From Candidatus Scalindua sp. (GTDB taxonomy: Bacteria > Planctomycetota > Brocadiia > Brocadiales > Scalinduaceae), in NCBI GenBank assembly GCA_031316155.1, contig JALDRB010000018.1, forward strand, positions 1-64,000: a stretch of DNA of 64,000 nt. The letters are read 5' to 3'. The position numbers and the translations under genes are program-made. The notes below the pieces were generated by a model. The model was not told the origin of the DNA. It ran no database searches and saw only the letters and a program-made list of their open reading frames with translations. Positions 23,095 through 53,122 of the stretch are shown here, piece by piece; the stretch's first letter is position 1; each line of letters begins with the position of its first letter.

Positions 23095-24624
23095 ATGACC
23101 ATCACCCCCTCCCTGCTCTACAACTACCTTCAGTGTCCTCACCGCGTGTGGCGGGATAAATACGGTCCGCAAGCGGAAAAGTCGCAGGAAACGAATCCTT
23201 TTGTTGAAATGCTCTGGAATAAAGGTATCCAGCATGAGAAGAAAGTTGTGAGTAAACTTGGTGAACTTACAGATATTTCAGAGGGATCTTATGATGAGCG
23301 TTTCGATATGACTGTTGAGAGGATGAAAAACGGCGCTTCGCTGATCTACCAGGGCGTTATTAAACATGATGATCTTTTTGGTATTCCGGATCTTCTTAAA
23401 AAAATGCCAGACGGTGATTATATTCCGATTGATATTAAATCCGGCATGGCGCTTAGCGGGGTTGATGAAGAAAAAGGAGACGAGGGTAAGCCGAAAAAAC
23501 ATTACGCTGTTCAGCTTTGTTCGTATGCCGACGTTCTATATAATCTTGGCTTTTCAAAACAAAAACGCGGCAAGATTATCGACGCCGGTTTAAACGAAGT
23601 TGAATTTGATCTTCTTGCTCCCCGGGGGCCCCGTACACCTGAAACATACTGGCAGCTTTATGAAAGAATCAGAAATAATGTATCGCTTTTGATTACCAAT
23701 CAGGAGAAAAATTATCCTGCGATGCAGGGCGTATGCAAATTTTGCCCCTGGTATGAAAGCTGCAAAAAATGGGTTGAGAAAACGCACGATCTTTCAGGGT
23801 TGTTCTGCGTCGGAAGAAGAGTACGCGACGCTCTTAACGACAATCTTCATATCCACAAAATAGAAGAAGTTCTTGATATAGATATTGAAAGCATAATGGA
23901 AGAAAAGAAACGGGATAAACAGTTCCTGAAAGGCATCGGCGAACCATCTCTTAAGAAAATAGTAAGGAGAGCACAGATATTTTACAAGACCGGAAAGCCG
24001 GTTCTATACGAAAGCATCACTTTCCCTGAAGTTTCATATGAACTGTTTTTTGATATCGAGAATGATCCCACCCAGGAATTTGTTTATTTACACGGAATTT
24101 ACGAGCGGCATAACGGACAGGAAAGATTTCTGGACTTCACGGCAACGGAACTTACTCCCGAAGCCGAAAAAGAAGCATGGCGCAAATTCTGGGAATATAT
24201 TGATTCGCTCCCTCAAAACGATTATGCGGTTTACTATTACTCCGCGCACGAAAAAACAACATACAAAAAGCTGCAAAAACTCTATCCCGACATTATTTCA
24301 GCCGGAAAAGTTGAAAAATTTTTTGAAAACCCTGCTGTTATCGATCTTTATAACGATATCATCCAGAGACAAACGGACTGGCCGCTCGGAAGTTACGGGA
24401 TAAAAGCAATCGCCCAATATCTTGGCTTTCATTGGCGTGATGAAACACCATCCGGTGCACTTTCAATTCAGTGGTTTAATAAATATCTCGAGGATAAAGA
24501 TCCTGCAGAATTACAGCGAATCCTCGACTACAACGAGGACGACTGCAAAGCCATGATGGTTTTGAAAGATGCTTTACAAGTCCCCGGAAAGGCTGATCCA
24601 CTATTCACACTATTCAACAGGTGA
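23095..24624 (+). CDS. TM0106-family RecB-like nuclease with RNase H-like C-terminus
   Basis: Protein of 509 residues. The N-terminal half is a PD-(D/E)XK nuclease: GIPDLLKKM and YIPIDIKSG hold the catalytic Asp, Asp and Lys. Four cysteines, C14 (LQCPHRVW) and C214, C217, C223 (VCKFCPWYESC), match the [4Fe-4S] ligand layout of Cas4 and AddB nucleases. The C-terminal half (from about residue 315, YELFFDIENDP) is an RNase H-like exonuclease domain ending in DYNEDDCKAM. Such proteins occur widely and are not tied to CRISPR; no array is nearby. Role in DNA processing or defence is likely but unproven. Intact. Confidence 0.88.
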   Translation: MTITPSLLYNYLQCPHRVWRDKYGPQAEKSQETNPFVEMLWNKGIQHEKKVVSKLGELTDISEGSYDERFDMTVERMKNGASLIYQGVIKHDDLFGIPDLLKKMPDGDYIPIDIKSGMALSGVDEEKGDEGKPKKHYAVQLCSYADVLYNLGFSKQKRGKIIDAGLNEVEFDLLAPRGPRTPETYWQLYERIRNNVSLLITNQEKNYPAMQGVCKFCPWYESCKKWVEKTHDLSGLFCVGRRVRDALNDNLHIHKIEEVLDIDIESIMEEKKRDKQFLKGIGEPSLKKIVRRAQIFYKTGKPVLYESITFPEVSYELFFDIENDPTQEFVYLHGIYERHNGQERFLDFTATELTPEAEKEAWRKFWEYIDSLPQNDYAVYYYSAHEKTTYKKLQKLYPDIISAGKVEKFFENPAVIDLYNDIIQRQTDWPLGSYGIKAIAQYLGFHWRDETPSGALSIQWFNKYLEDKDPAELQRILDYNEDDCKAMMVLKDALQVPGKADPLFTLFNR

Positions 24625-27698: not shown

Positions 27699-28603
27699 AT
27701 GTCTCTTGACCATGAAGTTAGATTAGCTGCTTTCAGCTGGTTATCAGAACAAGTCAATATTCATGGGGATGTTCTTTCTCGTGAATTACTTGCAAAAGGA
27801 TTTGTCTTTCAAGATCATAGAATACCATTGGTTTCACCTGGTTTCACCACAGGGAATATTTAAACCCAAGATACTAGATTTACCTCTCTCAATTACAACG
27901 GCACCAAAAGGACCTTATGATGACAGTTTTAATCAAGAAGGTTTTCTTGCCTATAAATATCGTGGTATAAACCCAGAACATCAAGATAATGTCGGATTAA
28001 GGAAAGCTTTAAACAAATACGTTCCTTTAATATATTTCCATGGAATTGTTCCAGGAAAATATTTAGCAGTTTGGCCTGTATACATTATTGCCGATGACCC
28101 TTCTAATTTAACATTTACCGTTGCAGTAGATGACTGTGAGGCTATTTATAAAGAACCGAGCCAAGTTAGAGAGGGGGCATATGCTAGACGTGCCTACATT
28201 ACTACTACAGTCAGAGCGAGACTTCATCAGAGAGGTTTTAGAGAAAGAGTCCTCGTTGCTTATCGTTCTCAATGTGCATTTTGCAGGCTTAAACACTTAG
28301 AACTGCTAGACGCTGCTCATATAATCCCTGATATTGAATCTGAAAGTATGCCAACTGTAGATAATGGAATTGCTTTATGCAAATTGCATCATGCAGCGTT
28401 TGACAGTTTTATTCTTGGTATCAATCCTGATTACACCATTGAAGTTAGAGAAGATGTGTTAGAAGAAAAAGAATGGCCCAATGCTTCAGCATGGTTTAAA
28501 AGATTTACATAAGTCTCGAATAATATTACCGTCTTCTCAAAATTTGTGGCCAAACAGAGAGTTAATTGATAGAAGATATCAGAAATTTAAGAAAGCTGTA
28601 TAA
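27699..28603 (+). pseudogene. HNH endonuclease gene with a 10-bp duplication and a second frameshift
   Basis: The first frame from ATG 27699 gives MSLDHEVRLAAFSWLSEQ to RIPLVSP. A tandem copy of TGGTTTCACC (27829-27838 and 27839-27848) breaks the frame. The second frame gives the body: PQGIFKPKILDLPLSI, then the zinc and HNH region with CAFC, LLDAAHIIPD and NGIALCKLHHAAFD (HNH_2 type). A single extra base near 28471 moves reading to a third frame that gives the normal C-terminus (HGLKDLHKSRIILP, then ELIDRRYQKFKKAV). Joined, it is a complete HNH nuclease of about 297 residues. Likely inactive as written, unless short products act alone. Confidence 0.85.
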
Positions 28604-28663
28604 AGAGCGGCCTAATAAAACGTGCTTAGAATGCAATAGATTAGGATCGACCCCAATTGCTTT

Positions 28664-28933
28664 GTGGAAAAATTATCAGTTGACCTGGCATCCGGCTACG
28701 ATAGTTCAAAAGGCTACTCAGCTCAGAATTTTTGGTATATGAGGCAGTTTTATTATGAATATAAGGGGAATCGAAAACTCCAACAGCTTGTTGGAGAAAT
28801 TCCATGGGGATATAATATCATGATTCTTTCTAAAGTAAAAAAAATAGATGAAAGAGAATATTATATAAAAGCCTCTTCTAAGCTTGACAGGAGCCTACTA
28901 ATGGGTGACCACAAGTTCTTGTACAAATTGTAA
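28664..28933 (+). pseudogene. Fragment of a YhcG/DUF1016 nuclease
   Basis: Eighty-nine codons matching the N-terminal helical domain of DUF1016 (YhcG) proteins: KLSVDLASGY, GYSAQNFWYMRQFYYEY, LVGEIPWGYNIMIL and DEREYYIKAS. Full-length members have more than 300 residues and a C-terminal PD-(D/E)XK nuclease, which is missing here; the frame ends after an unrelated tail. Together with the HNH lesion it marks this stretch as a decaying defence-gene area. Confidence 0.72.
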
Positions 28934-29624: not shown

Positions 29625-32600
29625 ATGAGTAATTCAGCAATACGAGATAATCATTCAAATGGTACCGTTGGTGATTTTTTAAAACAAGTTATCACCAAAA
29701 ATTCTGATATTTCCATAGTATCCGCATATTTTACAATTTATGCGTATCATCGTCTTAAGGGTAACCTTGATGGTATCAATAATCTCAGATTCCTGTTTGG
29801 GGAGCCGACATTCATCAAATCTATGGATCCAGACAAAACAAACGTAAGGGATTTTAAGATTGAGGATGATAAAATTGTAATTCCTCTTGAAAGTCGATTA
29901 ACTCAAAAGAGTGTCGCAAAAGAATGTTCAGAATGGATTAAAACAAAAACAGAAATTCGTTCCATGGTGAAACCTAATTTCCTGCATGGAAAGATGTACC
30001 ACATTCATCAAGAAAGTGGAATAGAGAAAGCGATTGCAGGCAGTTCAAATTTTACCGTTAACGGATTGGGACTTGGCGGCAGCAAGAATATCGAGTTGAA
30101 TCTTGTAGTTGACAGTGACCGTGACAGACAGGAACTGAAAGAGTGGTTCGACTCTATCTGGAATGACCAGACAGGGCTTGTTGAAGATGTTAAAGAGCAG
30201 GTGCTTAAATACCTTGAACAGCTCTATCTGGAAAATGAGCCCGAATTTATTTACTACAAAACACTGTACCATATATTTGAAAATTACCTGGATGAGCAAA
30301 AGAAGGGGGGGCTGCTTAATGAGCGCACCGGCTTCTTCGACAGTGAAATATGGGATACTCTTTATGATTTCCAGAAAGACGGCGTTAAAGGAGCAATAAA
30401 TAAAATACTTAAGCACAATGGATGCATTATTGCCGACAGTGTGGGTTTGGGCAAAACTTATGAAGCCTTGGCAGTTATAAAATACTTTGAATTATTGAAT
30501 AATCGTGTCCTTGTTGTTTGCCCGAAAAAACTGACTGGTAACTGGACAATATATCAGGCCAGCCAAAATCATGTTTTAAACCCATTTAAAAAGGACAGGT
30601 ACAATTATACCGTTCTTTACCACACCGATATGGCACGGGAATCAGGCCGTTCTGCTGCAAACGGTATCGATTTGGAAAATTTCAACTGGGGTGCTTACGA
30701 TCTTGTCGTTATTGATGAATCTCATCATTTCAGAGGGAATCCAGTTGAAAGCGCGAGAGAAGACGGTTCATTAAAAATGAATCGTGCGAAATGGCTGATG
30801 GAAAAAGTCATTAAATCCGGCGCAAAAACAAAAGTCCTCATGCTCTCGGCCACTCCGGTAAATAACAGTCTGCGCGATTTACGCAACCAGATTTCTTTCA
30901 TTACCGAAGGCAGGGAAGACGCACTCCTTGAATGCTGTAAGATAAAAGACATCGGGCAGACACTTAAAAACGCCCAGACGCATTTCACATTGTGGGCAGA
31001 CCATACAAAAAACCCCAATCGGTCTATGAAACAGCTATTGGAGAGGCTCGATTCTTCTTTTTTCAAACTCCTTGATGAACTTACCATCGCCCGCTCAAGA
31101 AAGCATGTTAAAAGTTTTTATAAAATTGAAGCTATTGGAAAGTTTCCTGAAAGAAACAAACCGCATTCCGTTTATCCCGAGATCGATTTGAAAGATCGTT
31201 TTCCCTCCTACGACCGTATAAATAAGCAAATACTTGAATACAAATTGTCGGTTTTTAATCCCTCGGCTTATGTTAAACCGGAAAATCAAAAAAAGTATGA
31301 AGACATGGCAGTGACGCAGGTACTTAATTTTAAGCAAACTGACCGTGAAAACTTCCTTATCGGCATGATGAAGGTGAATTTTCTTAAACGGCTTGAAAGC
31401 TCAATAGAGTCATTTGAAATATCTCTGGGCAGAACCATTCAGAAAATTGAAAAACTTGAAAACAAAATAAACGATTTTTTAAAAGATCGAAAGGATTCCC
31501 GGGAAGAGTCTCTGGAAAGCATAGCACCGGATGAGGAAGAGCTGGAAGAAAATGGCGATGACATGGAACAGTGGCAGGTTGGTAAAAAACTTAAATTCGA
31601 CCTGGCGGATATTAATCTACATGATTGGCTTGTTGATCTCAAAAAAGACAAAGAAGCGCTTGTCGATTTACTCAATAATGCATGCGCGGTGACGCCGGAA
31701 AGAGACGCGAAACTCGCGGAATTAAAAAAACTCATAAAAGAAAAAGTAAATACACCATTCAACGATAACAATAAAAAAGTTATTGTTTTTACTGCCTTTG
31801 CGGATACGGCTATGTATTTATACAAAAACATCGAAGAGTGGTGTCAGAGTGAATTGGGTATACACTCTGCACTTGTCTGCGGAAGCTACACGCAAACTAC
31901 CTATGGTAAAACTGATTACGATAGTATTCTTCTTAATTTCTCACCTGTATCCAAGAATCGCTCAAAAATGACATTGGCAACTCAAATGGTACTTTTCAAG
32001 ACAGATATTATTGATGAAATTGATGTTCTGATTGCCACCGACTGTATCAGTGAAGGCCAAAACTTGCAGGATTGCGATTATCTTATCAACTATGACATAC
32101 ATTGGAACCCGGTACGGATCATACAAAGGTTCGGGCGTATTGATCGGTTGGGTAGTATAAACGCAACAATTCAACTGGTTAATTTCTGGCCGACAAAAGA
32201 CCTTGATAATTACATCAACCTGAAAGAGCGTGTAGAATCCCGCATGGCTCTGGTGGATGTTACTGCAACAGGAGAGGATAATGTATTAAATACGGAACAG
32301 ATTGAAGAACTCATTACGGAAGATCTGAAATACCGCAACAGGCAATTGAAAAAATTGAAGGATGAGGTTCTTGACCTTGAAGACATGGATGAATCCGTCT
32401 CTCTTACCGACTTTACTCTGGATGATTTCCGGATAGAACTCATGAACTTCATTGAGAATAACCGAAAGCGTTTAGATGATGCACCATTCGGACTCTATGC
32501 GGTAGTTCCATCTCCATCGGGAGAGCATGCCGATTTATTCGAATCCGGTCAATTTACCGAAAATGAAAGAGATATAATCAAAACCGGTGTAGTATTCTGC

Positions 32601-32987
32601 CTGAAACAAAAGGGAGAGAACGAAGGCAACGAGGAAGTTAATCCTCTCAACCCCTACTTTCTGGTCTATATCCGCAGCGATGGTTCTGTGAGATACAACT
32701 ACACCCACGCCAAACAGATTCTGGAAATCTATCGCCTCATGTGCCAAAATAAAAAAATCCCTTATGATACATTGTGCGAACTCTTCAATGAAGATACTCA
32801 AAATGGTAAGAATATGGATGAATATACAGAACTGTTAAAAAAGGTGGTTGAAGAAATTATTCGGATGTTTAAAAAGAAAAGTAGCCATAAGCTCACATCA
32901 GACAGAGGTGCTCTGCTGATACCATCAACGAAACAGTTGCATGATATGGACAACTTTGAACTGGTTACATGGCTGATAGTGAGGTAA
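29625..32987 (+). CDS. PLD-domain SF2 (SNF2-like) helicase of a candidate defence module
   Basis: Protein of 1120 residues. Residues about 10-190 form a phospholipase D-like domain with one HxK site (H121, K123 in FLHGKMYHIH) and GSSNFTVNGL. A helicase core follows: Walker A ADSVGLGKT (270-278), motif II DESH (364-367), motif III SAT (408-410), then after a coiled insert (about 600-700) the second RecA domain with FTAFADTAMYL, ATDCISEGQNLQDCD and QRFGRIDRLGS. The C-terminal 200 residues are helical. Four bases separate its stop from the methylase start, so they form an operon. Known families of this shape act with large methylases in DNA restriction; the role here is inferred. Confidence 0.9.
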   Translation: MSNSAIRDNHSNGTVGDFLKQVITKNSDISIVSAYFTIYAYHRLKGNLDGINNLRFLFGEPTFIKSMDPDKTNVRDFKIEDDKIVIPLESRLTQKSVAKECSEWIKTKTEIRSMVKPNFLHGKMYHIHQESGIEKAIAGSSNFTVNGLGLGGSKNIELNLVVDSDRDRQELKEWFDSIWNDQTGLVEDVKEQVLKYLEQLYLENEPEFIYYKTLYHIFENYLDEQKKGGLLNERTGFFDSEIWDTLYDFQKDGVKGAINKILKHNGCIIADSVGLGKTYEALAVIKYFELLNNRVLVVCPKKLTGNWTIYQASQNHVLNPFKKDRYNYTVLYHTDMARESGRSAANGIDLENFNWGAYDLVVIDESHHFRGNPVESAREDGSLKMNRAKWLMEKVIKSGAKTKVLMLSATPVNNSLRDLRNQISFITEGREDALLECCKIKDIGQTLKNAQTHFTLWADHTKNPNRSMKQLLERLDSSFFKLLDELTIARSRKHVKSFYKIEAIGKFPERNKPHSVYPEIDLKDRFPSYDRINKQILEYKLSVFNPSAYVKPENQKKYEDMAVTQVLNFKQTDRENFLIGMMKVNFLKRLESSIESFEISLGRTIQKIEKLENKINDFLKDRKDSREESLESIAPDEEELEENGDDMEQWQVGKKLKFDLADINLHDWLVDLKKDKEALVDLLNNACAVTPERDAKLAELKKLIKEKVNTPFNDNNKKVIVFTAFADTAMYLYKNIEEWCQSELGIHSALVCGSYTQTTYGKTDYDSILLNFSPVSKNRSKMTLATQMVLFKTDIIDEIDVLIATDCISEGQNLQDCDYLINYDIHWNPVRIIQRFGRIDRLGSINATIQLVNFWPTKDLDNYINLKERVESRMALVDVTATGEDNVLNTEQIEELITEDLKYRNRQLKKLKDEVLDLEDMDESVSLTDFTLDDFRIELMNFIENNRKRLDDAPFGLYAVVPSPSGEHADLFESGQFTENERDIIKTGVVFCLKQKGENEGNEEVNPLNPYFLVYIRSDGSVRYNYTHAKQILEIYRLMCQNKKIPYDTLCELFNEDTQNGKNMDEYTELLKKVVEEIIRMFKKKSSHKLTSDRGALLIPSTKQLHDMDNFELVTWLIVR

Positions 32988-32990
32988 AAC

Positions 32991-35900
32991 ATGGAACAAA
33001 GAGAGACTAAGCTAAACATAAAAGCTGCGATTGAAAAATTTCAGAAAGGCAATCTGACCGATAACTCCCTCTCTCTCTTCAAGGCGTTCGGGTACAATAC
33101 AGAACGACAACAGCCGTTTGAAAAGAAGACTTATGCCTATTTCAAAGAGTTTTATCTGGACAGTAACTCCCGCTTTAATGAAGACAAGGCGCTTGTTTCT
33201 CAGTGGAACTATATAGACCTGCTTTTTCAGCTTTCCAGGGACGAGATAAGCCCTCAGCTTGGTTTATTTGATACAAAACAGGTTGATCGGACGATTATTG
33301 AAACCTACCTCTTTTTTGTTATAGAACTCTGTGAGGAATCGTATAGCAGAACAGCACTCAGCCAGATAACCCGTGAAATTAATAAGGTATTCCCTATGCC
33401 GGCTATGGTATTGCTCAAACACGGTAATACTCTCACCTTATCAGTTATCAACCGGCGTCTGCACCAACGGGATGAGCAGAAAGATGTGCTTGAAAAAGTA
33501 ACACATATTAAGGACATTTCAACAGAAAAGCCCCACCGTGCTCATATTGAGATACTCTTTGACCTTTCCTTTGACGAGCTTCTTCGTATTCACAAATTCA
33601 GTAATTTTGTAGAACTGCACAAAGCCTGGCAAAAGACGCTTGATATCAAAGAGCTGAACAAACGCTTTTATAAGGAGCTTTCAAACTGGTATTTCTGGGC
33701 GATGCATAATGTTTACTTTCCGGGTGCATATCCTGACGCTGATGATAAATCAATATTCAAAAATGATGAAAAAGTCAGAGAACATAATGCCAAGAATCTG
33801 ATACGTCTTTTAACAAGAATCCTCTTTATCTGGTTTACCAAAGAGAAGAATCTGATACCGGATGAACTGTTCGATGAATCCTTTATCAGGGATAATTTGC
33901 TGAAAAGCTTTGAGCCGCGCAGAAAAGACGTGTCTGGCCCCCAATCGCATGAGAGCAAGTATTACCGCGCGATATTACAGAACCTTTTCTTTGCCACGCT
34001 GAACCAGACTGTCGGCAAGAGAGAGTTCCGCAAGGGCGGACAGCACATGAATGTAACTAACCTGATGCGCTATGAGTCATATTTCAAGGACAGGAAAATC
34101 TTTCTCGACCTTGTAGAAAAAACCGTACCATTTATGAACGGAGGACTATTTGAGTGCATCGATAAACCTTCCCCAGACCTCAAAGGAAAAAAAGGCGGCG
34201 ATTTCATTATCTATGAAGACGGATTTTCCGACAGGCCGGACAACGAACTTTGCGTTCCCGATTACATCTTTTTCGGCACCTCAGAGCACGCGGACCTGAG
34301 CGAAGAGCTGGGAGACAAAAGCAAAGATGTGGAAGTCAAAGGGCTTCTGAATATTCTCAAGTCTTACAAATTCACCATAACAGAGAATACGCCTATCGAA
34401 GAAGACATTGCACTTGACCCTGAACTTCTGGGCAAGGTTTTTGAAAACCTGCTGGCAAGCTACAACCCTGAGACCAGAACAACAGCCCGGAAACAGACCG
34501 GATCTTTTTATACACCGCCTGAAATTGTCAATTACATGGTGGATGAAAGTCTGATTGCGTACTTAAGGCAGAGAATGGATGATGCAGGCATCAAGGACAA
34601 AGAAACAGATTTGCGAGACATGATTGGCTACTCTGAAAACCCAAATCCGTTTAGCGCAGAAGAGACCGCCATTCTGATTGAAGCCATCGATACCTGCAAA
34701 ATCCTTGACCCTGCATGCGGTTCGGGAGCGTTCCCCATGGGTATACTGCATAAGCTGGTGCATATCCTGGACAAACTCGACCCCAAAAATGAGCTTTGGA
34801 AAGAGAAGCAGATACAGAAAGCGAGTATGATTGACGACGTCGCTATCCTGGACCAACTGATAGAAGACATTGAGGCAGCGTTTAATAATAACGAGCTCGA
34901 TTATGGACGCAAACTCTATCTGATTGAAAACTGTATTTATGGCGTGGATATACAACCCATTGCCAGCCAGATCAGTAAACTCAGGTGTTTTATCTCCCTG
35001 ATCGTTGACGAGAGGATAGATAAAACGAAAGATAATTTCGGTGTTAGACCATTGCCGAATCTGGAAACAAAATTTGTTGCGGCTAATACCCTCATCAGGT
35101 TAGAAAAACCTAAAGGACAGTTATATCTCAATAACCCTGAAATAAATAAATTGGAGGAACAAATCAAGGATGTGCGCCACCGCCTTTTCAATGCAAAAAC
35201 TCCTGTAACCAAGCGCAAATTGCGAGAGGATGATAAAACTCTCCGTGAGAAAATGGGAGATCTACTTGTAGACTGTGGCTGGAGAAACAATACCGCCCGC
35301 CAGCTTGCAAGTTGGGACCCTTACGACCAGAATGCAAGCAGTCCGTTTTTTGATCCAGAGTGGATGTTTGGAATTACGGATGGGTTTGATCTGGTGATTG
35401 GGAATCCGCCGTATTTAAGAATTCAGGGTATTTACTCGGCTTCCGAAGAATTATTAAATTATTATAAATTAAACTTTAAATCAGCAACGGGTAGATTTGA
35501 TTTATACTGTTTATTTACGGAGAAGGGTTATCAATTAGCAAAAACTGGCGGTCAAGTTAATTATATCATGCCATTTAAGTGGACTAACGCATCCTTTGGA
35601 AAAGGTTTAAGAAGCTATTTGTCTGAAAACCAAGCTGTAGAAAAAATGATCTCTTTTTCTGATTTTCAGGTGTTTACTGCCTCAACATATTCATCACTCT
35701 TGTGGTTAAGCAAAACTCCCAAGGAGGACTTTGACTATATTAAGTTAGACCGGGACTTATATAGTGAAAAAGAATTAAATTTTTGGTTAGGCAATTTAAA
35801 AAAGTGTAATTTTGCACAAATAAACTTTAATCAAGGGAGCAATGTTTGGCAATTAATCTCTAATAACTTAAAAGCTGTATTTCAAAAATTAGATTCGCAA

Positions 35901-36929
35901 GAAACAAAAATAGCAGATATTACAGATGGAGTGTACCAAGGAATTGTTACAGGTGACAACAAAGTATTTGTATTAACTGTTATAACAACTGATGCTAATT
36001 ATTTCAATTGTTACTCAGAAGCGCTGAAAGAAGAATTTAAAATTGAGAAGACAATATTACACCCATTGGTAACTGGTAAGGAAATTTCAAAGTTTTGTAT
36101 AAAGCAGGGTGAAAAAGTTATTCTGTATCCATATCAAGAGCATAATGGAAAAACCGTTCTTATAGGAGAAGCAGCTCTTAAGTTAAAATATCCTTTAGCA
36201 TATAGCTATCTGCAAAAAAATTATAGTAGGCTTTTAAATCGTGGGAGTAAATCCATGAAGTATCCTTCATGGTATGCATTATGGAATCCACGTAAAATGG
36301 ATAGACTTAGTGCGCACAATAAAATTCTTACTCCTGATGTCTGCTATACTCCTCAAATGTGGTTAGATGCTAATATCGGTTTTTACCATATTGATACAAG
36401 CTATGCAATAATTACAAAACCAAATTTTGCTACTTTGATTTTTCCTTTGTATGCAATTTTAAATTCCACTCTAATGTGGTTTTATTTAAAAAATACTGGT
36501 GCAGTATTAAGAGGCGGATTCTTTAGATTTAAGACCTCCTACTTGGAAAACTTTCCTATACCTAAGCCAGATTTATTAAAAACACAAATTGAAACTTTTA
36601 AGACATCTGTTTTGCTTATTGAATTTTGCAATAAATTAAATAATTTAACAAGAGATATATTGTATGATATTTTAAACGCCCTTGTTTTCAACCTCTACTT
36701 CCCAAACCACATGAAAGAACGAAATATAGATGTCCTGCAATTTGTAGAAAAAGATATTGCCGAGGTGATGCAGGACAAAGAGTTTGATACCTTAAACAAC
36801 AGTCAAAAAGAGCAGGTAATAGCAGAACTCCACAAACGCTGGAGCGACCCTAACAGTGAAATACTCAAACGGATGAACAGCTTTACCAAAAAAAGCCCAG
36901 AAATCTTAAAGCCGATTATAGAAGGGTAA
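32991..36929 (+). CDS. Eco57I-like N6-adenine methylase/restriction protein
   Basis: Protein of 1312 residues. The N-terminal third (to about 470) includes IELCEESYSRTAL and a helical region typical of large type IIG-like enzymes; I cannot identify a certain nuclease motif. The methylase core has QTGSFYTPPEIV, SAM-binding motif I ILDPACGSGAFPMG (about 571-584), YGVDIQPIASQISKLR, and catalytic NPPY at 805-808. After that comes a target-recognition region (about 815-1230) with PFKWTNASFGKGLR, then a helical tail. The bases become clearly more AT-rich right after the NPPY codons, suggesting that the recognition part was exchanged. Cotranscribed with the helicase upstream. Confidence 0.92.
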   Translation: MEQRETKLNIKAAIEKFQKGNLTDNSLSLFKAFGYNTERQQPFEKKTYAYFKEFYLDSNSRFNEDKALVSQWNYIDLLFQLSRDEISPQLGLFDTKQVDRTIIETYLFFVIELCEESYSRTALSQITREINKVFPMPAMVLLKHGNTLTLSVINRRLHQRDEQKDVLEKVTHIKDISTEKPHRAHIEILFDLSFDELLRIHKFSNFVELHKAWQKTLDIKELNKRFYKELSNWYFWAMHNVYFPGAYPDADDKSIFKNDEKVREHNAKNLIRLLTRILFIWFTKEKNLIPDELFDESFIRDNLLKSFEPRRKDVSGPQSHESKYYRAILQNLFFATLNQTVGKREFRKGGQHMNVTNLMRYESYFKDRKIFLDLVEKTVPFMNGGLFECIDKPSPDLKGKKGGDFIIYEDGFSDRPDNELCVPDYIFFGTSEHADLSEELGDKSKDVEVKGLLNILKSYKFTITENTPIEEDIALDPELLGKVFENLLASYNPETRTTARKQTGSFYTPPEIVNYMVDESLIAYLRQRMDDAGIKDKETDLRDMIGYSENPNPFSAEETAILIEAIDTCKILDPACGSGAFPMGILHKLVHILDKLDPKNELWKEKQIQKASMIDDVAILDQLIEDIEAAFNNNELDYGRKLYLIENCIYGVDIQPIASQISKLRCFISLIVDERIDKTKDNFGVRPLPNLETKFVAANTLIRLEKPKGQLYLNNPEINKLEEQIKDVRHRLFNAKTPVTKRKLREDDKTLREKMGDLLVDCGWRNNTARQLASWDPYDQNASSPFFDPEWMFGITDGFDLVIGNPPYLRIQGIYSASEELLNYYKLNFKSATGRFDLYCLFTEKGYQLAKTGGQVNYIMPFKWTNASFGKGLRSYLSENQAVEKMISFSDFQVFTASTYSSLLWLSKTPKEDFDYIKLDRDLYSEKELNFWLGNLKKCNFAQINFNQGSNVWQLISNNLKAVFQKLDSQETKIADITDGVYQGIVTGDNKVFVLTVITTDANYFNCYSEALKEEFKIEKTILHPLVTGKEISKFCIKQGEKVILYPYQEHNGKTVLIGEAALKLKYPLAYSYLQKNYSRLLNRGSKSMKYPSWYALWNPRKMDRLSAHNKILTPDVCYTPQMWLDANIGFYHIDTSYAIITKPNFATLIFPLYAILNSTLMWFYLKNTGAVLRGGFFRFKTSYLENFPIPKPDLLKTQIETFKTSVLLIEFCNKLNNLTRDILYDILNALVFNLYFPNHMKERNIDVLQFVEKDIAEVMQDKEFDTLNNSQKEQVIAELHKRWSDPNSEILKRMNSFTKKSPEILKPIIEG

Positions 36930-37172
36930 TAAGATGAAAAAAAATTCCGAAAAATAGTCAGGTCTCAACTTTCAATAAATTACTTCAAAAATTTGACCAA
37001 GAAAACAACATTTTCCCGTATGATTAACAGATCGGTATAACATTACATAAAAAATTGTATACTGTTAAGTGACTATTAAAAGACACTTGAAACAATTCAG
37101 ATATACTATAAAATTCGTAACTATACTGAAACTGTAGAAGAATTTGTTATACAATTAAGGAAGTGTTAATTT

Positions 37173-39980
37173 ATGGATCACGGTGCTCATTTTTACAAAT
37201 GCGATTTTCAAGTTCATACTCCAAGAGATAATAATTGGATCGGTGAAAGACCATTGACGGATGATGACCGTAAGTCTTATGCTGATGATTTTGTCAAAGC
37301 ATGTCGAGAAAAAGGAATCAATGCAGTTGCGATAACTGACCATCATGATTTTGCTTTTTTCAATTATATAAAAAACTCAGCAAGCAATGAACTAGATAGT
37401 ACCGGAACTTCTATACCAATCGACAAAAAATTAATCGTTTTTCCTGGAGTAGAGTTAACATTATCAACTCCACCATGTCAAGCTATCGCAATAATGGACG
37501 CTGATTATCCTCCTAATAACCTAAATCAAATTCTCCATTTATTTGCTATTACACCCAATGGTGATACAGAAGCTACAACAATTGAAACAACTCCAATTAC
37601 AAATGAGATTGTGAATAGTTTCGAAGAATTGTATAAGAAACTTAACACTATAGAAACACTAAGGGGTAGATTTATTGTATTTCCTAACTTAAACGAGGGC
37701 GGACGACATACACTTTTACGTGCAGGTAATGCTGAGCAATACAGAAAAATGCCTTGTGTTGGAGGATATGTAGATGGAGCTATCACGCAACATGGAACAG
37801 GAAACACCAATATAGTAAATGGCATAGCTCGGGAGTGGGGATATAAAAATGTTGCTGTATTTCAAACATCTGATAATCGACGTAGAGATTTTTCAGACCT
37901 TGGAAATCATATAACATGGGTTAAATGGGCAATTCCTACAGCAGAAGCTCTCCGTCAAGCATGTTTGGCTAAAGAATCAAGACTTAGCCTTGTAACTCCA
38001 GAACTTCCACAAACCTACATTAAGAAATTAGATGTTACAAACTCAAAATTCTTAGGTTCTTTTAGCTTTGACTTTAATCAACAATATACGTCCCTCATCG
38101 GTGGAAGAGGTACCGGAAAATCGACTATTCTTGAATATTTAAGGTGGGGTTTATGTGACCAGACTTTTATTACTTTTGATCCAGAACAACACTCTGAGAT
38201 AGAAAAAAGACGTCAATCATTAATAGAAAAAACATTGATTCCCTTTAATGGTGAAGTAAGAGTTACATTTAGCTTGAATGGCATAGATCATATTATTAAG
38301 AAAAACTCAACAACTAAAGACATATTATTGAAAATTGCGGATGGTGAATTTGAACTAGTCAAAGAAGATGAAATAAGAAGAATTCTTCCTATTCAAGCAT
38401 ATAGTCAAAAACAGTTAAGTAACGTTGGTGTTAGAACCGAAGAACTTAAAAGATTTATCCAGCAACCAATTACCACTCAATTGAACAACCTAAAGTTTAA
38501 GCTTACTGATAATGCAAAAAAAACAAGAAGCAGTTACAATAGTTTTGTAAGAAAAAAAGAAATTCAAAATGAAGTAGAAGAATTTAAATTAGAAATAAGA
38601 TCGCTAAATAATCAAGTTGAAAATCTTCGCAAATCTCTATCTGGAATTTCTAAAGAAGATCAAGAAATAATCTCTCAAAAAAGCAAGATTGATTCAGAGC
38701 AAAGCTTAATTTCGACAGTACAAGCAGAGTTTTTATTAATATCTACCAAGGTTGATGAATTAATTGTGTCTCTTGAAAAGTATCCAGAACCATTCCCCAC
38801 AGATATTGAAATTGAAAATGAGGATATTATGACCTCAATTAATAGACTTAGAAAAGAAAAGTTTGATGAATTAACTAAACATGCTAAGCAGGTTCAAACC
38901 TCACTAAACGAAGAAAACATGAAAGAATTAAATAGATACCTTGATAAATGGAGTGAGAAGAAAGGCGAGTTTGAAACTAAATATGAATCAGCAAAGGAAA
39001 AGACATCATCCAATCAGCAGCAAATAAATGAAATTCAAAGAATAGAAAAAAGATTACAAGAATTATCTAGTACATTTCATGAAAGAAATGCTGTTTTAAA
39101 AGACATGGGAGACTCTGCTGAAGAATTTAATAACTTAAGAGAAGAATGGTACTCGATGCATCAGAGTAAAGTAAACCTTCTCAAAGAACAAGCGAAAGAA
39201 TTTTCGCAATTATCAAAAGGCCTAATAAAAGCAGAAATAACGAAATCTATTGATATTAGTCAATTAAAAACTCATCTGCTATCGGCTGTTTCTGGGACAC
39301 GGATTAGAGAAGAAAGAATTCAAAACCTATGTGACTTTATTTTAAAAGATGAAAATCCATTAGAAGCATGGAAAAATATTTTATCGGAGCTAAGGCAACT
39401 TGCTGAACTGAAAATCTCAGAAGAAAAGAAACTAAGTATACCTGAAACAGCAGTGTTAAATGAATGTGGATTTAATGAGAAGAACATAACAAGAATTATT
39501 GAAATTATGACACCTGAAAACTGGTTAGATATTGCTACAACTGAAATTGAATTCAATCCTGATTTTAAATACACTACCAGTAATCAAATGGGAGATGTAA
39601 TTCCTTTTTCAGAGGCATCTGCAGGCCAACAAGCTACTGCGTTATTAACCGTTTTATTAAATCAACCAGGGACTCCACTTTTGATAGATCAACCAGAAGA
39701 TGATATTGATAATAGAGCAATTAATGAAATAATCAACAACATTTGGAATGCAAAAAAGAAAAGACAATTAATCTTTACAAGTCACAATGCGAATCTAGTT
39801 GTTAATGGCGATTCTGAGTTGGTAATTTGTTGTGATTATAGAGAAGCAGGGGACCAGACAAGAGGAATAATTAAAGCAAAAGGAGCAATTGATTCTAAAA
39901 ATGTAAAGGACGAAATTACATCGGTTATGGAAGGTGGCGAAAAAGCATTTCGATTAAGAAAAGACAAGTATGGCTTTTAG
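37173..39980 (+). CDS. PHP-domain SMC-like ATPase (TrlF-like)
   Basis: Protein of 935 residues. The N-terminal PHP phosphoesterase part (about 8-290) has the metal ligand motifs DFQVHTP (H15) and AITDHHDF (D56-D59), and later EGGRHTL and FQTSDNRR. An SMC/Rad50-type ATPase follows: Walker A GGRGTGKST (310-318), long coiled coils (about 440-700), signature SEASAGQQATAL and Walker B LLIDQPEDDIDNR (about 836-848). This matches ATPases that I recall as the TrlF family, often in defence islands. The gene is very AT-rich and starts 243 bases after the methylase, so it may have its own promoter. A role in the same defence module is inference from position. Confidence 0.85.
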   Translation: MDHGAHFYKCDFQVHTPRDNNWIGERPLTDDDRKSYADDFVKACREKGINAVAITDHHDFAFFNYIKNSASNELDSTGTSIPIDKKLIVFPGVELTLSTPPCQAIAIMDADYPPNNLNQILHLFAITPNGDTEATTIETTPITNEIVNSFEELYKKLNTIETLRGRFIVFPNLNEGGRHTLLRAGNAEQYRKMPCVGGYVDGAITQHGTGNTNIVNGIAREWGYKNVAVFQTSDNRRRDFSDLGNHITWVKWAIPTAEALRQACLAKESRLSLVTPELPQTYIKKLDVTNSKFLGSFSFDFNQQYTSLIGGRGTGKSTILEYLRWGLCDQTFITFDPEQHSEIEKRRQSLIEKTLIPFNGEVRVTFSLNGIDHIIKKNSTTKDILLKIADGEFELVKEDEIRRILPIQAYSQKQLSNVGVRTEELKRFIQQPITTQLNNLKFKLTDNAKKTRSSYNSFVRKKEIQNEVEEFKLEIRSLNNQVENLRKSLSGISKEDQEIISQKSKIDSEQSLISTVQAEFLLISTKVDELIVSLEKYPEPFPTDIEIENEDIMTSINRLRKEKFDELTKHAKQVQTSLNEENMKELNRYLDKWSEKKGEFETKYESAKEKTSSNQQQINEIQRIEKRLQELSSTFHERNAVLKDMGDSAEEFNNLREEWYSMHQSKVNLLKEQAKEFSQLSKGLIKAEITKSIDISQLKTHLLSAVSGTRIREERIQNLCDFILKDENPLEAWKNILSELRQLAELKISEEKKLSIPETAVLNECGFNEKNITRIIEIMTPENWLDIATTEIEFNPDFKYTTSNQMGDVIPFSEASAGQQATALLTVLLNQPGTPLLIDQPEDDIDNRAINEIINNIWNAKKKRQLIFTSHNANLVVNGDSELVICCDYREAGDQTRGIIKAKGAIDSKNVKDEITSVMEGGEKAFRLRKDKYGF

Positions 39981-40148: not shown

Positions 40149-40451
40149 GGGGTCAAGTCTGCTATTGACTATTTTCCTTGATGATGTTACATTGTTGCAA
40201 CACGATAGGGGTCAAATCTTTCAAATTGACAAAAACAACTCAATCCCTGCCTGAATGATACAATTAACACATTTTGAAAATCGTATTACAAAGAGAATAG
40301 AGGAGTAGCTTGAATCGAATTCTGTAATCCGGGAGACACACTATTTATCTGTGATAAGAGATTTGATACGGGGTATTACACATTCATATACTGGGAAATG
40401 GGGTCAAGTCTGCTATTGACTATACTCCTTGATGATGTTATATTGTTGCAA
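40149..40451. repeat. Direct repeats of a REP-like sequence upstream of the transposase
   Basis: Two copies of about 52 bases (40149-40201 and 40400-40451) share GGGGTCAAGTCTGCTATTGA and then CCTTGATGATGTTA with few differences. A partial third, GGGGTCAAATCT, is at 40208. The complement CAGACTTGACCCC recurs after the transposase at 41423. The second copy ends at the transposase start codon. Confidence 0.85.
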
Positions 40452-41431
40452 TGTCAAGACCGCTCAGAATACAATACTCGGGTGCGTGCTATCATTTAAT
40501 GAATAGAGGACGTCGCCGTGAAACCATATTCCCAAAGAAAGAAGATTATATAGCCTTTACTGAGATATTAAAGGAAACAGTATCAGCATGGAATATTAAA
40601 ATAGTTGCATATTGTTTAATGTCTAATCATTACCATCTTTTAGTCCAGACACCCGAAGGGAATCTTTCACGGTGCATGAGGCACATAAATGGTGTTTATA
40701 CTCAGAGATACAATCGCAGGAATAGGCATGATGGCCAATTATTCAGAGGAAGATATAAATCTATTTTATTAGACAGTGACAATTATCTTACCGTTTTGGC
40801 AAGGTATATTCACCACAATCCGCTACGGGCTGGAATAGTTAGCCGATTAGAGGATTATGCCTGGAGCAGTCATAAAGGATATCTGTCAAAATCTTCTCAA
40901 TGGAATTGGTTAGACAAGGAAAGCTTCTTTGAATTATTGACTCATGATAAATCAAAACGATTGAGAGAATATAAGGAATTTATGAATGAGGAAGATCCAG
41001 AAGAGATAGTTAATGTATTTAAAAAGAAGAACTATCCTTCTATACTGGGAACCGAGGAATTTATAAACTGGGTAAAAGAGAAATATTCAGCCTTTCTATT
41101 TAAAGAAGAAATTCCTGAGACGAAGCTGTTGGCCCCAGACAAGGAAAAAATAATACTTGCCGTTTGTAAAGAATACAAAGTCAAAATGTCTCAATTATAT
41201 GGTATCCGTCGGGGAGCAGTTAATGAGCCAAGAAATATAGCGATTTACTTAACAAGATATATGTGGCGCGATTCTTTAAAGGAAATAGGCAAAGAGTTTA
41301 AGATTGTTAAATATAGTAGCGTAAGCAGTATAATTGAAAGTGTAAAGTCAAATCTCATAAGTAACAAAAGACTGAAAAAACATGTAGATAATATAAAAAG
41401 AGATTTACAGTTAAGCTATCGGCAGACTTGA
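40451..41431 (+). CDS. REP-associated tyrosine transposase with DnaA-like C-terminal domain
   Basis: Transposase of 326 residues in the Y1/IS200-like RAYT group. The HUH metal site is H60-Y61-H62 (MSNHYHLLV), and a tyrosine in ARYIHHNPLRAGIV (Y119) is the likely nucleophile. Residues about 229-315 resemble the DnaA C-terminal DNA-binding domain (NIAIYLTRYMWRDSLKEIG), an addition seen in some members. RAYT enzymes cut and join single strands at REP hairpins; here REP-like repeats flank the gene on both sides in inverted orientation, so the whole unit 40149-41460 is probably the element. The frame is intact and possibly active. Confidence 0.92.
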   Translation: MSRPLRIQYSGACYHLMNRGRRRETIFPKKEDYIAFTEILKETVSAWNIKIVAYCLMSNHYHLLVQTPEGNLSRCMRHINGVYTQRYNRRNRHDGQLFRGRYKSILLDSDNYLTVLARYIHHNPLRAGIVSRLEDYAWSSHKGYLSKSSQWNWLDKESFFELLTHDKSKRLREYKEFMNEEDPEEIVNVFKKKNYPSILGTEEFINWVKEKYSAFLFKEEIPETKLLAPDKEKIILAVCKEYKVKMSQLYGIRRGAVNEPRNIAIYLTRYMWRDSLKEIGKEFKIVKYSSVSSIIESVKSNLISNKRLKKHVDNIKRDLQLSYRQT

Positions 41432-47603: not shown

Positions 47604-48194
47604 ATGCAAATTAGAAAATCTACAAAGATCAGAAGACAACAGATTGTAAATATTATTCGAAGAATAATTTCATCTCAAGGCATTGAAGACGTTACCATAA
47701 GTGAAATAGCGATACATATGGGAACTACCAAAGGGGCTATTTACCGTCATTTTAAGAGCAAAAGGGATATATTGAAACTTTTAATAGAGAATATTGAAGA
47801 AACTCTCATGGAGGTTATTGATAAATCGGTAACAGATAAAGATCCGGTTCAAGACCTGAAAAACATTCTGCTTAACCAGCTCACTCTTGCAAAAAACCGC
47901 CGTAAGACCTCTTTGGTTGTTATTTTAGGAGCAATGCAATTCAGTGATCCTATCATACGAAAAAAGATTGCACAATTGATAGAAAAATATTTGCGCAGAA
48001 TAGAAGAGATCCTTTCAAAGGCTATAGAGTCAGGAAAGGTAAAAAGTGAAATTAACCCGCAAACATCTGCAATAGCCTTTTTTGGACTTATCCAGTCCAG
48101 TATTACAATGTTGTCATACAAAAAGTTTGATTTTGTTCCGGAAGAATTGCATTCGCAATTGTGGAATATCTATCATCTGGGAATCGGGCTTTAG
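47604..48194 (+). CDS. TetR-family transcriptional regulator
   Basis: Regulator of 196 residues. The N-terminal helix-turn-helix is at about 30-55 (TISEIAIHMGTTKGAIYRHF), followed by a helical ligand domain. GGAGGAG lies upstream of the start. It faces an MFP-RND-OMF efflux operon on the opposite strand and is the natural candidate for its repressor, though it does not share an intergenic region with the operon's first gene (54211). A dyad lies about 180 bases upstream of its own start. The inducer is unknown. Confidence 0.92.
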   Translation: MQIRKSTKIRRQQIVNIIRRIISSQGIEDVTISEIAIHMGTTKGAIYRHFKSKRDILKLLIENIEETLMEVIDKSVTDKDPVQDLKNILLNQLTLAKNRRKTSLVVILGAMQFSDPIIRKKIAQLIEKYLRRIEEILSKAIESGKVKSEINPQTSAIAFFGLIQSSITMLSYKKFDFVPEELHSQLWNIYHLGIGL

Positions 48195-48336: not shown

Positions 48337-49764
48337 TTACTTCCATCCCCCGCCCAGCGCCTGGTAAATACTAACCATTGCGTTCATTTGCTGTACTTTC
48401 GTTTCAATCAATTCCATTTTCGCTTGCAGCGCATCACGTTGGGTCATTAACACTTCCAGATAATTTGCCCTGGCCGATTTGAACAGCTTGCCTGCAAGAG
48501 TAATCGACTGGGTAAGTGCCTCCACCTCCTTTGCCTTCAGGTCATATTTTTTTTTCAGGTTACTGATATTTGACAGTTTATTGACAACCTCAATGTAAGC
48601 GTTCAGAACGGTACGTTCGTAATTGTAAACAGCTTGTATCTGCTTTGCGTTTGCATTGTAGTAGGCAGCCTTTAGTGCGAGTCTGTTGATCAAGGGCACC
48701 GCCAAATCTCCGGCTAAATTATACAGCATGGATTCTGGTCTTATTAAATACTTCGGCTCAAATGCCTGATAACCTACGCCTGCAGTTATGCCTAACGAAG
48801 GATAAAACCTTGCTCTCGCAACCTTCACATCCAACTTTGCTGCTGCCAGCTCCAGTTCGGCTTGTTTAATGTCTGGACGGTTGGTCAATAATTGTGATGG
48901 AAGACCGGCATGGATCGTGTCAGGCGCCAAATCATTATATCCCTGAGAGTTTCGCTGAACAGGCTGAGGGAATCTACCCACCAGGAAGTTGATCCTGTTC
49001 TCCGTTACCGTGATCTTTTGTTCAATAGTGTACTGATAACTTTGGTTTTTGAGCACCTCTGCTTCAAACTTGCGCACTGCCAGTTCGGTGGCTTTAGCTG
49101 CCAGTTTCTGCAGCTTTACGATTTCTAGGGCATTTTTTTGGATTTCAATGTACTTTTTTACTGCTGCCAGCATGTTATCGAAAGCCATCAGTTCGTAATA
49201 AGAGCTGGCTATTTCGGCAACCAGCTTAGTTACCATGAAATTTTTACCTTCAATTGTGGACAAATACTTCAATGCCGCTGCTTTTTTGGCATTCCGCAAC
49301 TTTTTCCATATATCCACTTCCCATGAAACATTAGCGGATATCAGATAATCCTGCAGTGTTCCAGGGAACTCCTCACCGGGTTTAATGTCAAGGTTTTTTT
49401 CAACAGCCCCTTTCCTGGTAAACTCGCCCACCTTGTCAGCCCCGGCTCCCGCTTTAAGTTTCACAAAAGGTAGATACTCCCCTTTTCTGGCCCGAACCTC
49501 ATTTCCAGCAATGATAATTTCCTGCAGTGTGATATTCAGTTCCTGGTTGTTTTGCAGCGCGGTATCAACCAGGGCTATAAGATTGGTATCGGTAAAAAAT
49601 TCCGCCCAACTAACCTGTGCCGTATTGGTTGTCTCCTGCACATCATGATAACTTTCTGGAACACTGTTGTTTTCTGTTTTCTGTAACAACGCAGGTGCAC
49701 AGCCTTTGAATACCAGCGAAATACAGATTATCCCTATATAGCTCAATATGTTGTTTTTATTCAT
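48337..49764 (-). CDS. Outer-membrane efflux channel (OMF, NodT/OprM type)
   Basis: TolC-like lipoprotein of 475 residues with a lipobox (LVFKGC). Two related halves of long helices with beta strands form the trimeric tunnel; LLTNRPDIKQAELELAAAKL and ARARFYPSLGI are typical. It is the last gene of the MFP-RND-OMF operon and lets substrates leave across the outer membrane. The presence of a true outer membrane channel fits a Gram-negative type envelope. Intact. Confidence 0.94.
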   Translation of the reverse strand: MNKNNILSYIGIICISLVFKGCAPALLQKTENNSVPESYHDVQETTNTAQVSWAEFFTDTNLIALVDTALQNNQELNITLQEIIIAGNEVRARKGEYLPFVKLKAGAGADKVGEFTRKGAVEKNLDIKPGEEFPGTLQDYLISANVSWEVDIWKKLRNAKKAAALKYLSTIEGKNFMVTKLVAEIASSYYELMAFDNMLAAVKKYIEIQKNALEIVKLQKLAAKATELAVRKFEAEVLKNQSYQYTIEQKITVTENRINFLVGRFPQPVQRNSQGYNDLAPDTIHAGLPSQLLTNRPDIKQAELELAAAKLDVKVARARFYPSLGITAGVGYQAFEPKYLIRPESMLYNLAGDLAVPLINRLALKAAYYNANAKQIQAVYNYERTVLNAYIEVVNKLSNISNLKKKYDLKAKEVEALTQSITLAGKLFKSARANYLEVLMTQRDALQAKMELIETKVQQMNAMVSIYQALGGGWK

Positions 49765-49856
49765 GGTATTTCATTTCTTTGATTACTCTCTTTTTCGCTC
49801 CTTAACAATCTTTTAATTAGTTTGTTAGCCTTCCGCAGATTTTTTAAGATCTTGTT

Positions 49857-52800
49857 CTAACTTTCTTTTGAATGTACATCTTCTTCGCTCAGGCCGGTGG
49901 AAAGGCCAGTACAAACGCTGAGATGTTTGTCTTTTGAATGTACATATTCTTCGGTCAGGGGTATGTCATATTCACCTCTCACGAGTTGGCGGCCTTCTGT
50001 GAGTTTACCGAATATGTAATACAATCCGGGAATAACGATTACCCCGAAAACGGTTCCGATAAGCATACCCCCAAGAGAGGATGAGCCTATGGTACGATTA
50101 CCAATGGCACCAGGACCGGTGGCAGTAACCAGGGGTATCAATCCCGCACAAAAGGCAAAGGAAGTCATCAGGATCGGTCGAAAACGCACCCTGGCGCCTT
50201 CTATGGCCGCATCGAGTATGGTCGCTCCCTGTCGATGTTTCTGAACGGCAAATTCCACGATCAGCACGGCATTTTTGGTCAGCAAGCCGATCAACATGAT
50301 CATTCCCACCTGGGCGTAAACGTCGTTGGCCAATCCCGTGAGCTTGAGCAGTAAAAACGAACCAAATATTCCGATCGGCAGGGAAAAGATTACCGCTAAT
50401 GGCAAGATGAAGCTCTCGTACTGTGCGGCAAGCACCAAATAGACAAAAATGAGCACGATAGCAAAGATATAAACCGCTTCATTTCCCCGTGCGGCTTCAT
50501 CAAACGAAAGGCCTTCCCAGGCGATGTCATACCCTATGGGCAAAACTTCCTCAGCTACCTCCCGTATCGCTTGTATGGCCTCGCCAGTGGTGTTCCCCTG
50601 TGCGGGAAACCCCCTGATGGCTGCCGAATTGTATAAGTTGTAACGGGTAATTTCATTGGGGCCTTGTGTTTTTTTCATCTTCATAAATGATGAATAAGGC
50701 ACCATCTCATCATGGTTATTTTTTACATACAGTTTCTCAATATCCGATGGGAACCTTCGGCTTTCCGGAACCGACTGTGTGTAAACTTTGAAAAAACGGC
50801 CAAATCGAATAAATCCTTGCTCATAAGTACTCCCTATCAGAATGTTGAGGTTTTCTATTGCTCTTTCGATAGACACTCCTTTCTGCATAGCAACTTTGTT
50901 GTCTATCTCCAACTCATATTGAGGATAATTGGCCGCATAAAAGGTAAATAAGCCGGACAGCTCTTTTCGCCTGCGCATGGCGTCCATAAATTCATTATTT
51001 ATTTTTTCAAATTCATGGTAATCCGTAGAATTGGTTTTATCGAGCAGGCGCAGGGAAAAACCGCCGGAAGAACCAAATCCCGGCACAGGAGGTGGTTCAA
51101 AAAACTCTATGATGGCTCCGAGATTCTTCGTTTTTTCTTCCATTTCCTCTATGATCTCACGAACCGATTGTTTACGCCCCGACCAGTCCTTCAGGCTGAT
51201 CAGGCATGTCCCCGCATTAGAGCCTCGTCCTTCTGTCATGATCTCATAACCCGCCAATGAAACAACCGATTCAACACCATCAATTTCTTTGCAAATTTTT
51301 TGCAGATCTTGGGCTACCTGATTGGTTAATTCCAGAGTGGAGCCCGGAGGGGTTTGTATAATGGCATAGATTGTCCCCTGGTCTTCGCCGGGAACAAATC
51401 CTGTCGGAACAACTGTGCTTTCCAGGAATATTCCTACACCAAATACCAGCAATATCCCGAAAGTGACCAATCTTCTGTTTGCTATTAATTTCAGCAATCC
51501 TACATATCTTCCTGTCAGCTTTTCGAACCCCTTGTTAAAATAGCCGAGCAACCACTTGATCGGTGATTTTCTTCTCGTTTTACCATGCGTATTCTTCAAT
51601 ATGATAGCACACAGCACCGGTGTAAGGGTAAGTGCAACAATACCCGAAATAATAATGGAAGCAGCCATCGTAATTGAAAACTGCCGGTAGAATACACCTA
51701 CCGGGCCCGTCATGAATGAGACAGGGATAAATACTGCTGTCATAACCATTGTAATGGCAATAATGGCGCCGCTGATCTCTTTCATCACATGTTTGGTGGC
51801 ACTGTATGGCGACAGGTGCTCTTCATCCATTTTGGCATGTACGGCCTCTACCACCACAATGGCATCGTCAACGACAATACCAATGGCCAGCACAAGGGCA
51901 AATAAGGTGACCAGGTTGATGGAAAGTCCGAAAAACTGCATGACAAAGAAGGCGCCGATCAGGGATACCGGAACGGCCAGTGTTGGAATTAACGTGGAGC
52001 GCCAATCGCCAAGAAAGATAAATACGACTAAAGCTACCAATATAAATGCGTCTCGTAAAGTATGCATCACTTGTTCAATAGAGGCACTCAAAAATTGCGA
52101 TACATCATAACTGATCTTATAATCCATTTCCGGTGGGAATTCCGCTTTTAATTCTTCCAGTTTGGCCTTTACCTGCTTAATTACATCTTTGGCATTACTG
52201 CCGACTGTTTGTTTTAAAACAATGGATGCCGCCGGATGACCGTCAATGTTGGAATAGATGTCAAAAAATTCGCTTCCCAGCTCTACATTGGCTATATCTT
52301 TCAGGTAGAGTATTTCACCTTCTTCATTGGCCCGAATGATGATATTCCCATATTGTTCCGGCTTGTTATACCTTCCCTGGTATGTCAGCACATATTCCAC
52401 CGATTGCGCATGTATTCCTGAACTTTGCCCTAATCTTCCCGGCCTGCCTATGATGCTTTGCTCCGCCATTGACTTCATCACTTCTTCTGCCGAGATGTTA
52501 TATGCCCGCATCCGATCAGGTTTCAACCAGATGCGCATGGCGTATTTCCGGCTCCCCAGTATTTGCGCCATCGCTATACCGTTAATTCGTTGTATTTCCG
52601 GTATCATTTTGGTATAGACGTAATTGTAAAGGAACATTTCATCGGTATCTCTATCTTCACTGTATAGGTTCACATACATCAACATGCTGGGTTGTATCGG
52701 TGTGATGATAACTCCTTCCCGTTGAACCAGCAGAGGAAGAAGGGGCATCACCTGATCCACCCTTGTTTTCACTCTTATAACCGCCTGATTAGGATCAGTA

Positions 52801-53090: not shown

Positions 53091-53122
53091 GATTGTCTTT
53101 TTTACCTTTCTTGTTGCTTACA

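Follow-up and report, generated by a model that had tools for sequence, protein, structure and literature searches.

Gene content of the locus

In the window, a 64,000-nt stretch of DNA from Candidatus Scalindua sp., three genes lie in a row on the forward strand. Pfam and an ORF check confirmed the three frames read from the sequence alone as open, intact and carrying the domains described. The first (29625..32987, +) encodes an HKD (PLD) nuclease - SNF2 helicase/translocase of 1120 aa. The second (32991..36929, +) encodes an adenine methylase of 1312 aa, with a DUF4391-like N-terminus, an Eco57I-type core and a TaqI-like target-recognition domain. The third (37173..39980, +) encodes a TrlF-family PHP-like/SMC ATPase of 935 aa, which we judge to be outside the core system. 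The helicase and methylase ORFs are 3 bp apart, and 243 bp separate the methylase from TrlF.

The sequence-only reading placed these genes in a defence island, a description that holds only weakly. The flanks do contain an HNH nuclease gene (27763-28512), a decayed YhcG (DUF1016) piece with ORF fragments in two frames (approximately 28566..28933, +) and an IS200-like (REP-associated tyrosine) transposase fused to a DnaA C-terminal domain (40451-41431), but the wider scanned neighbours are metabolic, sensory or efflux genes. We take the decayed piece to be YhcG from recognition of its DUF1016_N sequence rather than from an HMM match. The gene reported as a RecB-like neighbour exists (23095-24624, with PDDEXK_1 and RNase_H_2 domains), but it is 5 kb upstream, beyond rhodanese and lipocalin genes.

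The genome has seven places matching the transposase; near the TrlF gene of genome G051 (L045 11339-12313) lies a copy with 44% identity. Further on, 47604-48194 encodes a TetR regulator and 48337-54211 a complete operon for RND efflux, with outer-membrane channel, permease and adaptor. In G045, from the same genus, which was compared for an empty site, the contig ends right at the flank of the locus.

Helicase and methylase

The helicase matches the PADLOC model C3a139 ('HKD+Snf2') over residues 24-1119 (E 7.2e-126). Its Pfam domains are PLDc_2, SNF2-rel_dom and Helicase_C, with a single HKD/PLD domain. The HKD motif, with HxK at residue 121 and GSSN at residue 139 (about 29985-30050, +), precedes an SF2 motor covering residues ~246-905. 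The catalytic motifs HxK/GSxN, GLGKT, DESH and QRxGR are all present and invariant across relatives of 59-91% identity. Two points weigh against a restriction role: the classical Asp is missing from the HKD motif, and nucleases with a single HKD must dimerise, which other single-HKD restriction nucleases do. The family is widespread, with at least 576 confirmed relatives from many phyla in a GTDB scan.

In the methylase, Pfam matches to Eco57I (124 bits) and TaqI_C (42.5 bits, residues 1025-1190) were found together with the motifs DPACGSG and NPPY, and its closest solved relative is M.BseCI (PDB, E 7.9e-17). The TaqI_C match falls in a variable C-terminal target-recognition region (residues 891-1312; 35661..36926, +). 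The conservation of HxK, GSxN, Walker and DESH motifs in the helicase and of NPPY in the methylase is consistent with the activities predicted for both proteins.

Residues ~51-230 of the methylase (33141..33680, +) form a DUF4391-like domain, which we propose couples the protein to the helicase. A profile made from stand-alone DUF4391 genes, which carry this NCBI annotation in helicase-DUF4391-Mod-Res operons, finds this N-terminal region (hmmsearch, 29 bits). Aligning methylase N-termini with the stand-alone genes gave a probability of 95.4 and E 1.7e-8 over 147 columns (hhalign). These matches show the methylase N-terminus to be a DUF4391 domain. The AlphaFold model of residues 1-250 is confident (pLDDT 89.8), yet the domain model has no PDB or viral fold match at E <= 0.001, and neither a nuclease nor any other function could be read from the fold. 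Such a confident model with no fold match makes a binding role more likely than a known catalytic one.

Association of the helicase with DUF4391 partners

Relatives were gathered in two ways, from 75 genomes of the host's class and from 80 named GTDB loci of the helicase. The latter amount to 1.33 Mb in total, and in 46 of them 7 kb or more of sequence is present on the downstream side of the helicase. A partner bearing DUF4391 adjoins the helicase in 74 of the 80 loci. Partners directly matching the methylase of the window were found in 60 loci, and a type III Mod in 12. Among the six loci with no DUF4391 partner, four stop at a contig edge, L122 has 0.7 kb left past the helicase with one open frame, and in L158 the partner is truly missing. 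The helicase-methylase pair noticed from the sequence alone is a real and widespread module. Within the class of the host, 18 of 75 genomes have the helicase (E <= 1e-60) and 12 have the methylase (E <= 1e-80), mostly adjoining the helicase.

The partner genes of the 80 loci form two classes, being either a methylase like that of the window or a stand-alone DUF4391 gene of ~250 aa. The second class comprises L164, L166-L171, L174, L176-L179 and the annotated plasmids L183 and L184, with L172 and L173 cut off. Wherever the sequence runs on, Mod is the next gene in all of them and Res follows in most. These helicase-DUF4391-type III loci (L183 11219-18017 and L184 7980-17009 among them) sometimes include YhcG too, and are found on archaeal and Acinetobacter plasmids.

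Other genes accompany the pair in part of the relatives. In about 12 of the 80 loci, intact YhcG genes are between or beside the helicase and the methylase. Where YhcG or another nuclease gene is part of the operon, as in some relatives, the real restriction subunit might be encoded there instead. A KilA-N domain gene separates helicase and methylase in two loci (L101 13605-14459 and L142 13344-14156), and in G032 genes for a short prokaryotic Argonaute and SIR2 are directly behind the methylase (L031 3830-7112). Ten loci have an SMC/RecF-type ATPase of ~550 aa behind the methylase (L107 17234-18964, L125 17210-18829, L134 17148-18827 and seven others), mostly with a 4-bp overlap with the methylase end. 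In a subset of loci, this ATPase is seemingly a true member of the operon, and it is not TrlF. Blastp showed no relation between the two, and their profiles align over ~104 columns around Walker A only, so it was discarded as a TrlF counterpart; judging from these alignments, they are different genes of the same superfamily.

In four relatives from the same taxonomic order as the host, the helicase and/or the methylase is broken by stops or frameshifts (L035, L036, L038 and L043, from G017, G034, G043 and G030, respectively). This suggests frequent decay of the helicase-methylase system. Broken genes in several relatives fit the decay of a restriction-modification (RM) system but also a loss of function.

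Modular exchange along the methylase

The similarity of the methylase to its relatives breaks sharply along its length. Its target-recognition region is ~15-25% identical to that of relatives whose helicases are 73-91% identical. Between G052 and the window, identity is 91% in the helicase, 78% in the methylase N-domain (about 80% over the first 200 residues) and 15% in the recognition domain, which is the background level. G001 is the mirror image, with 34% identity in the helicase and 23% in the N-domain, but 62% in the methylase core and 56% in the recognition domain.

These relationships were quantified in 49 helicase-methylase pairs by Spearman correlation and 300 permutations, a design that removes shared ancestry only partly. 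Helicase identity correlates with that of the N-domain at 0.51, a value reached by none of the 300 permutations, with the core at 0.30 and with the recognition domain at 0.11 (36 of 300 permutations). When the N-domain is held fixed, the helicase correlation falls to 0.01 with the core and 0.03 with the recognition domain, whereas with the core held fixed the correlation between helicase and N-domain stays at 0.45. On these comparisons, the DUF4391 domain tracks the helicase, while the core and the target-recognition domain of the methylase have been swapped independently. Docking of residues ~1-230 on the helicase, with the remainder serving as an exchangeable specificity cassette, would produce such a pattern. 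We infer the contact between N-domain and motor from co-variation only, and the correlation may partly reflect shared ancestry.

The TrlF-family gene

The third gene scores 526 bits over residues 3-934 with NF045780, above the curated equivalog cut-off of 350 bits for TrlF. It had been read as a fusion of a PHP phosphoesterase with an SMC-type ATPase. The SMC/ABC ATPase was recovered; the PHP domain reaches 20.2 bits against a Pfam cut-off of 26.4, and several conserved histidines are gone. Its motifs are DFQVHT, PCQ and SDNR in place of the canonical DxHxH, xTH and SDxH. The gene belongs to a subgroup of nine members (39-48% identical; also L045, L097, L180-L182 and L186-L188) in which several of the PHP histidines are replaced. 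Gln takes the place of the first His and SDxR that of SDxH, differences that set the subgroup apart from the TrlF of Photorhabdus. With those histidines lost, the PHP domain is probably not a standard phosphoesterase. The layout of a PHP-like domain followed by an ABC ATPase also resembles the anti-phage protein Ppl (NF042955), but the score of 187 bits is far under its cut-off of 1000.

The sequence-only reading proposed that the three genes form one system. A TrlF gene is absent from all 80 GTDB loci, over their full 1.33 Mb. In the host's class, a close TrlF occurs in 2 of 75 genomes and is adjacent to the helicase only in the genome of the window, while G025, G028 and G030 have both the helicase and TrlF (NF045780 model) on different contigs. 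Moreover, its GC3 of 0.217 is the lowest among 27 window genes (mean 0.413, sd 0.068), against 0.40-0.41 in the pair. The absence from helicase loci, the separate contigs, the 243-bp spacing and the deviant GC3 show that the third gene is independent of the pair, and the neighbourhood counts rule out one conserved three-gene system. The functional unit predicted from these neighbourhoods is that of two genes, 29625-36929, and the presence of TrlF beside it is probably accidental or facultative.

The name TrlF comes from the temperature restriction locus of Photorhabdus, where the gene is in an operon with trlG, encoding AlbA_2 and HATPase_c_4 domains (PMC7554251). This was the only relevant paper in our literature search on TrlF, and a search for a PHP-SMC-Schlafen defence system returned nothing specific. 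Unlike in Photorhabdus, no TrlG (Schlafen AlbA_2) gene is downstream of TrlF in the window. We collected 42 TrlF loci outside the window by homology alone. Among the 36 proteins encoded immediately upstream on the same strand, we found N6_N4_Mtase (6), ResIII (6), N6_Mtase (3), Eco57I (3), Methylase_S (2), DUF1156 (2) and BrxL (2), counts that overlap since some proteins match more than one family. Of the 41 proteins immediately downstream, 12 belong to the Schlafen AlbA_2/HATPase_c_4 type (TrlG-like). Individual hosts include a type I operon, a BREX-1 operon with TrlF between PglX and PglZ, a type III Mod-Res operon and a type IIG enzyme. In one locus from Planctomycetota (L091 1871-15851), TrlF is nested in an Hma-like operon with the order helicase-DUF1156-TrlF-473 aa-DUF499. 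A PHP-SMC ATPase does recur behind methylases, among restriction genes of types other than the window pair. Many TrlF genes are solitary.

From these gene neighbourhoods, we conclude that TrlF is a separate acquisition and probably a mobile guest of modification-based defence; a putative functional coupling to its host systems is plausible. The three genes could nevertheless co-operate in this lineage, with the RM pair restricting and TrlF forming an operon-linked second layer when restriction fails. In favour are the common strand, the 243-bp gap and the fact that TrlF elsewhere comes right after methylases and restriction genes of various types. We consider it unlikely, since none of the helicase loci and no other genome of the class has the set, the composition differs and many TrlF genes are found alone.

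Comparison with known systems

We found no dedicated system name for the helicase-methylase pair. C3a139, which the helicase matches over its full length, is a single-protein model that does not include the methylase partner, the DUF4391 link or the exchange of specificity. Type III RM systems are linked through the sister form, in which Mod and Res accompany the same helicase together with a separate DUF4391 gene, but no type III Mod (N6_N4_Mtase) or Res is beside the window helicase, and the window methylase is of the Eco57I/TaqI type.

The earlier exclusion of DISARM and BREX was borne out, with scores far under the cut-offs. The helicase reaches 146.6 bits with the DISARM model NF038317 (cut-off 610) and 98 bits with NF038318 (cut-off 950), below the DrmD family score, and DrmA, DrmB (DUF1998) and DrmC were absent from the scanned window proteins around the locus (Pfam, NCBIfam, PADLOC). 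The methylase reaches 75.6 bits with the PglX model NF033452 (cut-off 500), and no scanned window protein matched PglZ, BrxC or BrxL.

Hma and the DUF499-centred, BREX-related Type-2 systems are closer, having an HKD-SNF2 helicase adjoining a DNA methylase and an RM-like logic. In Type-2 systems, an N-terminal HKD is fused to the SNF2 helicase and accompanied by an N6-methylase (PMC12839542), the same composition as in the window. Hma has been described with an m5C methylase (PMC12839542, PMC8565338), unlike the N6-methylase found here. Given this composition and a weak HmaA match of the helicase (E 6.6e-24), the pair might be a reduced system of this kind that lost the DUF499 ATPase and DUF3780 and kept the family mechanism. 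We regard this as very improbable: no DUF499 (PF04465), the ATPase that defines those systems, was found in the whole genome (92% complete), C3a139 rather than HmaA is the best model for the helicase, and relatives of the helicase pair with DUF4391 and not with DUF499. On the absence of DUF499 we set aside an identity with Hma or Type-2 systems. DUF3780 does not figure among the Pfam matches of the scanned window proteins.

Equally hard to sustain is a reading in which the methylase is a self-sufficient type IIG enzyme, combining nuclease and methylase in a single chain, and the helicase beside it works on its own as a modification-dependent restriction enzyme (type IV, SauUSI-like). The methylase does match type IIG models of PADLOC (E 3.5e-69), and SauUSI-like PLD-helicase fusions act alone. 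Against this, its N-terminus is DUF4391-like with no nuclease fold for the model, the pairing is constant and the DUF4391 domain co-varies with the helicase.

A proposed two-gene restriction-modification system

The pair has the features of the ATP-dependent RM class, namely a motor-nuclease paired with a methylase whose target-recognition domain is exchangeable. We think it likely that the two genes form such a system, composed of an HKD nuclease-translocase and a swappable specificity/modification subunit coupled through DUF4391, with TrlF acquired separately. This reading builds on the architecture and intact motifs of the pair, the pairing statistics, the homology with DUF4391, the modular exchange and the independence of TrlF; cleavage, methylation, contact between the proteins and phage defence by the pair are predictions from sequence.

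In the proposed mechanism, the SNF2 motor with its N-terminal HKD nuclease would be the restriction/translocation subunit. The methylase would mark self DNA with N6-methyladenine, having its target-recognition domain on the same protein, and would dock on the motor via the N-terminal DUF4391 domain. On target sites that lack the mark, the complex would translocate and DNA would be cut by the HKD nuclease, which probably works as a dimer; methylated sites would be left intact. A new specificity would arise by swapping everything behind the DUF4391 domain. In the sister form, DUF4391 is encoded by a gene of its own and the same motor comes with a Mod/Res operon of type III.

The proposed RM system is widespread. 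We found no paper on the methylase pairing of this helicase family or on the role of DUF4391, and its function as a coupling domain is proposed here as new. The DUF4391 link would explain why, to name-based tools, helicase and methylase look like no more than two orphans.

PrrC is the guard of EcoprrI and fires when EcoprrI is disabled. By analogy, we raise a more speculative picture, which we hold only tentatively and as a whole. DUF4391 may be a general plug joining one HKD-SNF2 motor to different methylases, fused to those of the Eco57I type and stand-alone for type III, and TrlF, with or without its Schlafen partner, may be a mobile guard in type I, type III, BREX, Hma-like and HKD-SNF2 operons, firing once the host modification system is disabled.

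The case of TrlF, a recurrent guest of modification-based defence, is a caution against defining systems from single neighbourhoods. DUF4391, recognised as a helicase-linked domain, would make it possible to test how several classes of methylase may be served by a single restriction motor.
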